A stretch of 64,000 nucleotides of DNA, taken from Ferrovibrio terrae. GTDB lineage: Bacteria; Pseudomonadota; Alphaproteobacteria; Ferrovibrionales; Ferrovibrionaceae. Under the pieces are notes generated by a model. That model was not told the DNA's origin. It searched no databases and was given only the letters and a program-made list of their open reading frames with translations. Below, piece after piece: positions 47,572 through 61,184 of this stretch. Position 1 is the stretch's first letter; each line of letters begins with the position of its first letter. Location of the stretch: NCBI RefSeq assembly GCF_007197755.1, contig NZ_CP041636.1, positions 1,648,001 through 1,712,000 on the forward strand, read 5' to 3'. Made by a program: the position numbers and the translations under genes.

Positions 47572-47643
47572 GTCACCCCGGCCTTGAGCCGGGTCGCATT
47601 TCATTGCGGCGAAAAATGGGATTCCCGCTTTCGCGGGAATGAC
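47572..47643. repeat. Inverted pair of GTCA...ATCC palindromic elements (locus A)
   Basis: The first element (47572-47602) begins GTCACCCCGGCCTTGAGCC with a CCCGGC/GCCGGG stem. The second (47619-47643) is on the opposite strand with stem ATTCCCGC/GCGGGAAT and ends GAATGAC. Their tails face each other around ATTTC/GAAAAAT. The second matches a palindrome widely repeated in proteobacterial genomes. Confidence 0.65.
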
Positions 47644-54065: not shown

Positions 54066-54094
54066 GGGATCCCGGGTCAAAAGCCCGGGATGAC
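54066..54094. repeat. Palindromic element (locus B, second copy, inverted)
   Basis: On the minus strand it reads GTCAT at one end, an 8-bp stem ATCCCGGG/CCCGGGAT (54069-54076 with 54084-54091), and ATCCC at the other end. It faces the first copy tail to tail (ATCCCATT versus AATGGGAT). Confidence 0.65.
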
Positions 54095-58875: not shown

Positions 58876-59619
58876 TCAGTAATCCACTTTCATCAGGCAC
58901 AGGCCTTCCGGCGGCGCGGTAGGACCTGCCGCGCGGCGGTCGGCCTTTTCGAGCGCGGCGCTGACGTCATCGGCATTCCATCTGCCTTCGCCGACCAGTT
59001 TCAGCGTGCCGGTCATGATGCGCACCTGGTTGTGCAGGAAGCTGCGCGACGAGGTCGTGACATGGATTTCATCACCGACGCGCCGCACATCCAGCGCATC
59101 CAGCGTGCGCAACGACGACTTCGCCTGGCATTCGGTGGAGCGGAAGCTGTTGAAGTCGTGATGTCCGACCAGGCGCTGGGCGGCGACCTGCATGGCATCG
59201 GCATCCAGCAGCACCGGCACATGCCACACACTGCCTGCTTCTATCGCCGGCGGCGGGCGGCGGTTCAGGATGCGATACAGATAATGCCGCGCGGTGGCGG
59301 ACAGCCGCGCGCTGAACTCGCCATCGACAATGGCGGCGTCCAGCACGGCGATGCGGTTCTCGCGCAGGTAAAAGTTCAGCCCGTCGCGCAGGCGGTCGGG
59401 CGTGAAGTCGCGGTCGAGGTCGAAATGCACCACCTGGCCGCGCGCATGCACGCCGGCATCGGTGCGGCCGGCCACCACGGTATCGATGGTCAATTCGCCG
59501 CCGCAGATCGCCTGCACGGCTTCCTCGAAAGTCTGCTGCACTGAGGCGACGTCGCGCTGCTTCTGCCAGCCGGCAAAGCGGCTGCCGTCATATTCCAGTG
59601 TCAGGCGATAGCGCGGCAT
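58876..59619 (-). CDS. truA: tRNA pseudouridine(38-40) synthase TruA
   Basis: A 247-residue enzyme. Catalytic Asp54 in [17 protein letters not shown], plus [13 protein letters not shown]. It modifies U38-U40 in anticodon stems. Third gene of the minus-strand set def-fmt-truA. Confidence 0.95.
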
Positions 59620-59638
59620 GGCGTTTTAAAAGGAAGGC

Positions 59639-59668
59639 GTGGATGGCCGGGTCAAGCCCGGCCATGAC
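59639..59668. repeat. 30-bp palindromic element (locus C, first copy)
   Basis: On the minus strand: GTCATG, stem GCCGGG/CCCGGC with loop, then ATCCAC. It is the mirror partner of 59686-59715, head to head. Confidence 0.7.
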
Positions 59669-59685
59669 AAGGAAAATATATGTGT

Positions 59686-59715
59686 GTCATGCCCGGACTT
59701 GTTCCGGGCATCCAC
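59686..59715. repeat. 30-bp palindromic element (locus C, second copy)
   Basis: Plus strand: GTCATG at the start and ATCCAC at the end, same length as the partner but with a different stem (CCCGGA/TCCGGG), showing paired changes on both arms. The pair lies in the 115-bp truA-fmt spacer. Confidence 0.7.
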
Positions 59716-59734
59716 GTCTTGGGTTCGCATCGGA

Positions 59735-60655
59735 CTAACCAACCCGCGTTCCCTTCGGCAGCGGCAGGCCGCGCAGGAAATCGCCGATGGCAACCGGGGT
59801 CTTGCCCGGGCGCTGCAGCTTCAGCAGGTTCAGCGCGCCGTCTCCGCAGGCAATCTTGCCGGTATCATCCAGTGCGGTGCCGGCTGCGCCACTGCCGGCA
59901 ACAGGCTCGGCGGCCAGCAGCTTGATGCGTTCGCCGTTGATCTCGAAATGCGTGCCGATGCCGGGGTTGAGCGCGCGCACGGCACGGTCGATCTCGATGG
60001 CTGATTTCGTCCAGTCGATGCGGCCTTCGTCCTTCAGCAGCTTGGCGGCGTAAGTGACGCCCTCAGCGGACTGCGCCTGCGGCTGAATCTGGCCTTTGGC
60101 ATACCCATGCACGGCACGCACCATCAGCGGTGCGCCGACGCGCACCAGTTCGTCATGCAGTTCGCTGACCGTCATGCGCGGTGTGATCGCAACGATCTCG
60201 CGCAGCAGCACCGGGCCGGTATCCAGCCCGACATCCATCTGCATCGCGCAGACGCCGGTCTCGAGATCGCCCGCCATGATGGCGCGCTGGATCGGTGCGG
60301 CGCCGCGCCAGCGCGGCAGCAGCGAGGCATGCAGATTGAAGCAGCCATGCTTCGGCGCATCGAGGATCGGCTTTGGCAGCAGCAGGCCATAGGCCACCAC
60401 GATGGCGGCATCGGCCTTGAGGGCTGCGAATTCGGCCTGCGCGTCGGCGCTCTTCAGGCTGACCGGATGGCGCACCGGCAGGCCGTGCTGCTCGGCGAAA
60501 GCCTGCACCGGTGAGGGCGTCAGCTTCTGGCCGCGGCCGGCGGGACGCGGCGGCTGGCTGTAGACAGCCGCGATCTCGTCGCCGGCCTTGAGAAACGCGT
60601 CCAGCACCGGCACGGCGAAATCCGGCGTGCCCATGAAGACCAGACGCAATGTCAT
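59735..60655 (-). CDS. fmt: Methionyl-tRNA formyltransferase
   Basis: Formylates initiator Met-tRNA. It has 306 residues. Catalytic signature FNLHASLLPRWRGAAPIQ with Asn108 and His110, and Asp145 in MDVGLDTGPVL. Ten bases after def on the minus strand. Confidence 0.96.
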   Translation of the reverse strand: MTLRLVFMGTPDFAVPVLDAFLKAGDEIAAVYSQPPRPAGRGQKLTPSPVQAFAEQHGLPVRHPVSLKSADAQAEFAALKADAAIVVAYGLLLPKPILDAPKHGCFNLHASLLPRWRGAAPIQRAIMAGDLETGVCAMQMDVGLDTGPVLLREIVAITPRMTVSELHDELVRVGAPLMVRAVHGYAKGQIQPQAQSAEGVTYAAKLLKDEGRIDWTKSAIEIDRAVRALNPGIGTHFEINGERIKLLAAEPVAGSGAAGTALDDTGKIACGDGALNLLKLQRPGKTPVAIGDFLRGLPLPKGTRVG

Positions 60656-60665
60656 GGGGAGGTGA

Positions 60666-61184
60666 TCAGCTGGCGGTGGCGAGGCGCTTCTGCTTCAGCA
60701 GCTTGCGCAGGATCATGTTGCGCTTCAGCGCGGAGATATGGTCGACGAACAGGATGCCTTCGAGATGGTCCATCTCATGCTGCAGGCAGACCGCGAGGAG
60801 TCCCTCGGCATGCAGTTCCTGCTTCTCGCCGTTGCGGTCGAGATAGCTGACCTTCACTTCGGCCGGGCGCTCGACCTCGGCATAATGTTCCGGCAGCGAC
60901 AGGCAGCCTTCTTCATAGAGCTGGTCGTCGTCCGAGACCCAGGTGATTTCCGGGTTGATGATATAGAGCGGCTGCTTGTCTTCGCCGTCGCGGGCGACGT
61001 CGATCACCAGCATGCGCTTGGGGATGCCGACCTGGATGGCGGCGAGGCCAATGCCCGGCGCGGCATACATGGTCTCCAGCATGTCATCGAGCTGCTGACG
61101 CACCTCGTCCGTCACCGTGTCGACGGGGGTCGAGACGGTTTCCAGGACCGGGTCCGGGGCAATCAGGATGGGCAGCAGGGCCAT
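60666..61184 (-). CDS. def: Peptide deformylase
   Basis: Removes the N-formyl group from nascent proteins. It has 172 residues. Motifs [10 protein letters not shown] (45-54), EGCLSLPE with Cys94, and QHEMDHLEG with His136/Glu137/His140. First gene of def-fmt-truA. Confidence 0.96.

Follow-up and report, generated by a model that had tools for sequence, protein, structure and literature searches.

Two 31-nt hairpins occupy the truA-fmt spacer of Ferrovibrio terrae, facing each other through their GTCAT ends. The question they raise is whether such a pair is kept for a function at this junction or was carried there by a system that recognises hairpins. The locus was analysed within a stretch of 64,000 nucleotides, hereafter the window, and its features are listed in Table 1. 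A preliminary description had reported 30-bp copies lying head to head in this spacer: the pair is real and its members do face each other, but their common length is 31 nt, one more than stated. The location was borne out, with truA, fmt and def all confirmed by NCBIfam in the order def-fmt-truA, fmt and truA both being on the minus strand. We refer to the layout as 'GTCAT ends inward', a name used here only and not mapped onto the HH/TT labels of PMC3733652.

Table 1. Positions of the hairpin pair and neighbouring genes, numbered from the first letter of the window.
Feature	Position	Strand	Description
Left CGTC-REP hairpin	59638-59668	-	GTCATGGCCGGGCTTGACCCGGCCATCCACG; GGCC-stem arm; stem 9, loop 5, tail ATCCACG
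AT-rich spacer separating the arms	59669-59685		17 nt
Right CGTC-REP hairpin	59686-59716	+	GTCATGCCCGGACTTGTTCCGGGCATCCACG; GCCC/GGA-stem arm
truA, downstream gene	58876-59619	-	NCBIfam TIGR00071
fmt, upstream gene	59735-60655	-	NCBIfam TIGR00460
def	60666-61184	-	confirmed by NCBIfam

The hairpin pair at the truA-fmt junction

In each arm, nine stem pairs enclose a 5-nt loop. Two stem pairs (G-C/C-G and G-C/A-T), with pairing retained at both, and one loop base distinguish the left arm from the right; the earlier reading that the stem differences preserve pairing was correct for both changes. A looser version of the hairpin pattern was found twice in the window, compared with a chance mean of 0.05 and a maximum of 1 in 100 shuffles. 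When folded as single-stranded DNA, the two arms together form a single long hairpin (z -6.65). An Rfam search gave one match to a microRNA model over the inverted repeat, which was set aside as chance (26.1 bits against a gathering threshold of 197 bits, E 0.034). Two more CGTC-like hairpins, of other types, are present in the window at 47618-47643 and 54066-54094 (-).

Hairpins of this kind might be retained for a role in RNA or chromosome function, such as mRNA stability, termination or protein binding, in which case the nuclease gene described below would be a nearby host gene. The RNA of the truA-fmt spacer does fold far better than shuffled sequences (-51.2 kcal/mol, z -6.1). Yet neither an intrinsic terminator, defined as a G+C-rich stem followed by a T run (0 in 59500-59850), nor a promoter pattern was found at truA-fmt, and similar nuclease genes occur in unrelated flanks. 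The junction itself could be located in 8 of the 9 other Ferrovibrio genomes, the exception being G009 (72% complete). Five of these 8 have no insert at all (G003, G004, G006, G007 and G008), and in two others (G001 and G005) the place is taken by unrelated dimers of opposite layout. Selection on structure had been one of the original suggestions; in the form of an RNA function at truA-fmt it was not upheld by these comparisons, and we regard a retained RNA or chromosomal role as very improbable.

A family of CGTC REPs with compensated stem changes

In the complete 4.26-Mb genome, the pattern GTCATG-N8-T-N9-ATCCACG had 22 exact matches and its reversed form 0. With up to three mismatches, the GTCATNNNCGGNNTTNNNCCGNNNATCCA pattern gave 73 matches genome-wide, and the reversed pattern 1; 56 genome copies were found at two or fewer mismatches. 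Neighbours less than about 100 bp apart among these 56 copies were arranged (+,-) in 14 cases, (-,+) in two and (-,-) in one; the window pair belongs to the (-,+) cases, which have their GTCAT ends inward. The same layout recurs in 15 of 19 other Ferrovibrio places, which were picked for their resemblance to the window pair, with spacers of 11-31 nt.

Both arms begin with TGTCAT, and the unpaired tail ATCCA present in both fits a CCA tail. In the accessible text of Di Nocera, De Gregorio and Rocco (2013, PMC3733652), CGTC REPs are characterised by a CGTC/TGTC tag, A and T residues in the first two stem pairs, stems of 8-9 pairs, loops of 4-5 nt, a CCA tail, occurrence as dimers and heterodimers, and a mostly alphaproteobacterial distribution. 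The truA-fmt hairpins are an ordinary pair of CGTC REPs, and so belong to a known repeat family, because they combine the tag, the A/T first stem pairs, a 9-pair stem with a 5-nt loop, the CCA tail and dispersed inverted dimers; the preliminary description had likewise seen a REP-like repeat. According to the same portion of PMC3733652, CGTC REPs were present in all alphaproteobacterial orders examined in 2013, their spread was unexplained, they "apparently lack a dedicated transposase", and the Neisseria dRS3 repeats were assigned to CGTC-1.

Covariation was assessed in 56 distinct 29-mers, among the matches listed from the genome and class-wide searches, with a pattern that left five stem pairs free on both sides; the four fixed pairs are uninformative. 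Standard pairs were formed in 97.4% of pair cells versus 80.5% in shuffles (0/500 as high), and two-sided changes numbered 72 cells versus 18.2 (0/500 as high). Such changes were seen at all five variable pairs, a count that is not above shuffles (176/500 as high), and slid controls were 21-44% paired. The paired stem changes first noticed in two copies, which the preliminary description had wanted checked in a larger set, are therefore a property of that set as well.

Compensated changes need not reflect selection. Palindrome correction can copy one side of a palindrome onto the other, and template switching or arm-to-arm conversion of this kind could in principle have produced the stem changes. 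A comparison with the G002 genome bears on this possibility: its truA-fmt junction (L199) holds an orthologous pair in which the two arms are exchanged relative to window positions 59638-59716, while the 17-nt spacer matches better unflipped (14/17 by eye). For the whole pair, alignment scores are about alike in both orientations. Exchanged arms around an unflipped spacer fit conversion, but when genomes are compared, each of the five variable pairs is represented by more than one pair type, which argues against it. We consider conversion an unlikely source of the compensation; it would in any case account for the stem changes only and is compatible with the preferred reading given below.

A GIY-YIG nuclease gene bounded by the same repeats

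A RAYT had been proposed as the enzyme to look for, and the search gave no support to it. The Y1, RAYT-type profile PF01797 has 0 matches in the Ferrovibrio terrae genome. Of 10 Ferrovibrio genomes, one (G004) has a matching gene, and there are no such hairpins within 700 bp of it. With PF01797 absent and the lone Ferrovibrio Y1 gene unflanked, a RAYT was rejected as mobiliser in Ferrovibrio terrae. Negative controls consisting of the two other GIY-YIG genes of this genome and four Y1 loci, only one of the latter in a REP-rich genome, were hairpin-flanked within 700 bp in 0/6 cases.

Identical 31-nt REP arms at C1:784318-784348 and 784660-784690 surround a gene for a 95-aa product that matches PF01541 (GIY-YIG) with 53.7 bits. 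The genome has three PF01541 matches, and the other two are without such hairpins within 700 bp. Across 41 sequences, Y7, Y18, R28 and N84 are invariant and E65 is present in at least 90%; we take the conserved Tyr, Arg, Glu and Asn to be the catalytic residues. The gene is under purifying selection, with a median dN/dS of 0.296 over 1162 pairs (range 0.013-1.279, with 2 pairs reaching 1 or more) and values of 0.013-0.117 in the 40 lowest pairs. An AlphaFold2 model of the nuclease had a mean pLDDT of 91.6, and its neighbours in the PDB were UPF0213 (E 6e-4; no other neighbour reached 0.001), Slx1 (0.02), UvrC (0.16) and, weakly, I-TevI (1.2). The protein resembles UPF0213, Slx1 (which its structure titles describe as acting on branched DNA), UvrC domains and homing endonucleases such as I-TevI in catalytic fold and residues. 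Unlike these nucleases, it has 95 aa in a single domain, is encoded between palindromic repeats and matches no NCBIfam family above cut-off. Relatives (E<=1e-6) were found in 29/61 related genomes, including 10/10 Ferrovibrio, and REP matches are likewise present in all 10 Ferrovibrio genomes.

The association of gene and hairpin extends well beyond this genus. The named alphaproteobacterial loci are the best 80 of at least 530 confirmed relatives, four of them contigs already in other sets; within 150 bp of the gene, a REP-form hairpin was present upstream in 63, downstream in 58, on both sides in 48 and on at least one side in 73, compared with 2/142 control windows 1.2 kb away. The corresponding numbers for 24 loci from a class-wide search were 16, 20 and 14 (upstream, downstream, both; controls 3/46). 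Four of these loci (L273, L274, L275 and L279) encode proteins identical to those of named-set loci, apparently being duplicates of these; leaving them out gives counts of 13, 16 and 11 of 20. Genes and controls were scanned with one and the same detector, which demands a paired stem. In non-ORF DNA of 148 loci, hairpin density was 16.2 per kb within 150 bp of the gene versus 2.5 per kb beyond 400 bp. When these two sets and the 61-genome set were pooled, with some duplicates and fragments included, 122/154 gene units had a hairpin within 130 bp; the 32 units without one count against the nuclease as mobiliser.

Seven records from a plasmid collection gave a similar picture, with REP-form hairpins within 200 bp in 6 and on both sides in 5. 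The latter were Rhizobium sp. CIAT894 (form 9/5, identical arms), Azospirillum lipoferum 4B (8/4), Novosphingobium aromaticivorans (8/5, identical arms), Aeromonas caviae (8/4) and Neisseria gonorrhoeae (8/4). For Sinorhizobium meliloti the detector found an upstream hairpin only, and the Planktothrix record had no REP-form hairpin within 200 bp. The five records that annotate the gene all label it 'GIY-YIG nuclease family protein'. The linkage spans several REP types, plus the single Aeromonas and Neisseria records.

Gene and repeats also co-occur across genomes. The survey covered 387 alphaproteobacterial genomes with a completeness of 90% or more; 78 of them contained the 9/5 CCA-tailed REP pattern and 134 the gene (E<=1e-15). 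Five or more REPs together with the gene were present in 41 genomes, REPs only in 16, the gene only in 93 and neither in 237 (OR 6.5, p 5e-10, a nominal value as the genomes are related). For the closest genes (E<=1e-34) the numbers were 24, 33, 5 and 325 in the same order (OR 47, p-values again nominal). The class-wide pattern requires an ATCCA tail, and G003 accordingly has 135 matches with the tail left open and 0 with that pattern. Two features of these counts weigh against the nuclease as mobiliser. Of the 57 genomes with at least five REPs, 16 had no detected gene (G013, G249, G292, G256 and 12 others), including one of the same family with 37 copies; possible reasons are losses, divergent enzymes or another mobiliser. 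In addition, 93/134 gene-bearing genomes had fewer than five REPs of the searched 9/5 CCA-tailed pattern, which is one REP type; hairpins of forms 9/5, 8/5, 8/4 and 9/4 stand beside different family members.

Within units, the two arms tend to match. Identical arms were found in 20/45 units with a + hairpin upstream and a - hairpin downstream, compared with a permuted mean of 5.7 and a maximum of 12. Arm order is mixed, however, and the simple '+ | -' arrangement in only 30/122 units with a hairpin speaks against the nuclease as mobiliser. On a tree of 151 proteins, REP class (118 labelled) required 8 changes versus 10.9 in shuffles and tail (114 labelled) 7 versus 14.3, each with 0/300 as low. 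Because the alignment offers 104 columns against 151 rows, near-copies among them, and many forks of the tree are open, we treat this clustering as weak evidence. G005 carries two of the genes about 1.3 kb apart with different tails, CCA and CTT/CTC.

The same anatomy could have arisen if the GIY-YIG gene were a homing-type parasite that cuts REP dimers and enters them through copying when the break is repaired, the REPs themselves being spread by another enzyme. A gene between two arms and the co-occurrence of gene and repeats fit this account about as well, and the 16 REP-bearing genomes with no detected gene agree with it. So does the metC-clpB spacer (C1:784300-784750), which holds the nuclease unit in Ferrovibrio terrae and G001 and an unrelated CGTC-1-like dimer in G002:C36. 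However, no other enzyme has been linked to the repeats so far, given the results for PF01797 above, and a parasite of any REP would need neither the arm match within units nor the tendency of REP type to follow protein type. We therefore hold a homing parasite to be possible but rather unlikely.

Movement of dimers and gene units

Comparison across Ferrovibrio reveals empty junctions, exchanged arms, an inverted pair and a missing dimer, so dimers are gained, lost and inverted where genes meet. The first two were described above for truA-fmt. The inverted case is a second orthologous pair, C1:1068698-1068771 (L010 1458-1531), in which the whole dimer is inverted relative to the flanking genes when compared with G002 (L255): 70/75 columns are identical if one copy is inverted and 61/75 if not. 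The inversion breakpoints lie outside the arms, and simple arm-arm recombination would not give them. One further dimer of G002 is absent from the matching place in the window. Since the metC-clpB spacer holds different inserts in different genomes, some junctions appear to be repeated targets. No target-site duplication of the kind that marks a classical MITE and no base-exact junction was seen at the Ferrovibrio junctions or at the A. lipoferum sufB-sufC site described below, but the compared spacers also differ in these places; this too is counted against the nuclease as mobiliser.

These data favour a mobile element with a recognised hairpin, in line with the transposition mechanism that had been envisaged at the outset. 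Judging from sequence comparison, the truA-fmt pair is likely a passenger, and the small GIY-YIG nuclease is the candidate mobiliser. Our preferred reading, which we consider probable, is that a non-autonomous CGTC-REP heterodimer landed at the truA-fmt junction in a lineage common with Ferrovibrio sp. EaCA-1, and that its hairpin form was retained through recognition as a DNA structure. The recogniser would most likely be the stand-alone GIY-YIG nuclease encoded between copies of these hairpins, so that REP-gene-inverted REP would be the autonomous unit and gene-less pairs its passengers. The nuclease may bind the extruded hairpin and cut it near the unpaired CGTC and CCA ends, after which strand transfer or break repair would copy the hairpin-bounded segment into a new intergenic site. 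In this manner segments with or without the gene could be copied, flipped or reinserted.

In a broader form, on which we lean only slightly towards acceptance, minimal GIY-YIG nucleases would be the dedicated mobiliser of CGTC REPs, acting on the extruded hairpin and moving or inverting hairpin-bounded segments whose breakpoints fall at the outer ends of the REPs. They would constitute a second REP system, parallel to the RAYTs but with an unrelated enzyme, and would act for several CGTC types across Alpha-, Beta- and Gammaproteobacteria, with Neisseria dRS3 perhaps among them. As in the RAYT/REPtron system of GTAG REPs, as outlined in the accessible text of PMC3733652, the repeats bound a gene for a DNA-cutting enzyme and gene-less dimers far outnumber gene units. 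The differences are the tag (GTCAT rather than GTAG, with ends GTCAT and ATCCACG) and the enzyme, GIY-YIG here versus an HUH tyrosine transposase there. In contrast to the CGTC REPs of that text, which come without an associated transposase gene, several CGTC types here bound a GIY-YIG gene. No paper linking a GIY-YIG nuclease to REPs was found in the open-access literature, among the matches listed and with preprints outside the scope. The accessible text of RepRanger (2025, PMC12306157) has 0 occurrences of nuclease, transposase or RAYT, and that of the 2016 study of Bradyrhizobium sORFs (PMC5082802) has 0 of GIY. A named, small and conserved nuclease gene makes the spread of CGTC REPs directly testable. 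If the broader reading holds, GIY-YIG enzymes would gain a repeat-spreading role outside introns, and REP systems would have arisen with at least two unrelated enzymes.

The gene unit itself has moved. No flank similarity was detected in 19/40 gene pairs of at least 84% identity, although some flanks in this comparison were cut by contig ends and 10 of the 19 pairs came from one group of five Magnetospirillum-type loci. Immediately beyond the REPs, these five have a further stretch of about 30 nt in common (25-33 nt per side), and relative to the shared ends REP-gene-REP is inverted in two of the five (L153, L132 and L166 versus L183 and L186). The unit of A. lipoferum 4B stands between sufB and sufC, bordered by one REP dimer at either end (a left arm is imperfect), whereas sufB adjoins sufC without a unit in A. 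ramasamyi, A. oryzae, Azospirillum sp. B510, A. thermophilum and A. brasilense (up to 96.5% identity in this comparison). The plasmid search revealed no clean empty site for the unit of Rhizobium sp. CIAT894. The gene is also inherited vertically, since it occupies one syntenic site in Bradyrhizobium, Rhodopseudomonas and Nitrobacter, an observation that counts against its role as mobiliser. Within Ferrovibrio, GIY-YIG units were also observed at one syntenic place in three genomes, with one of them oppositely oriented with respect to its flanks (L071 and L100 versus L102).
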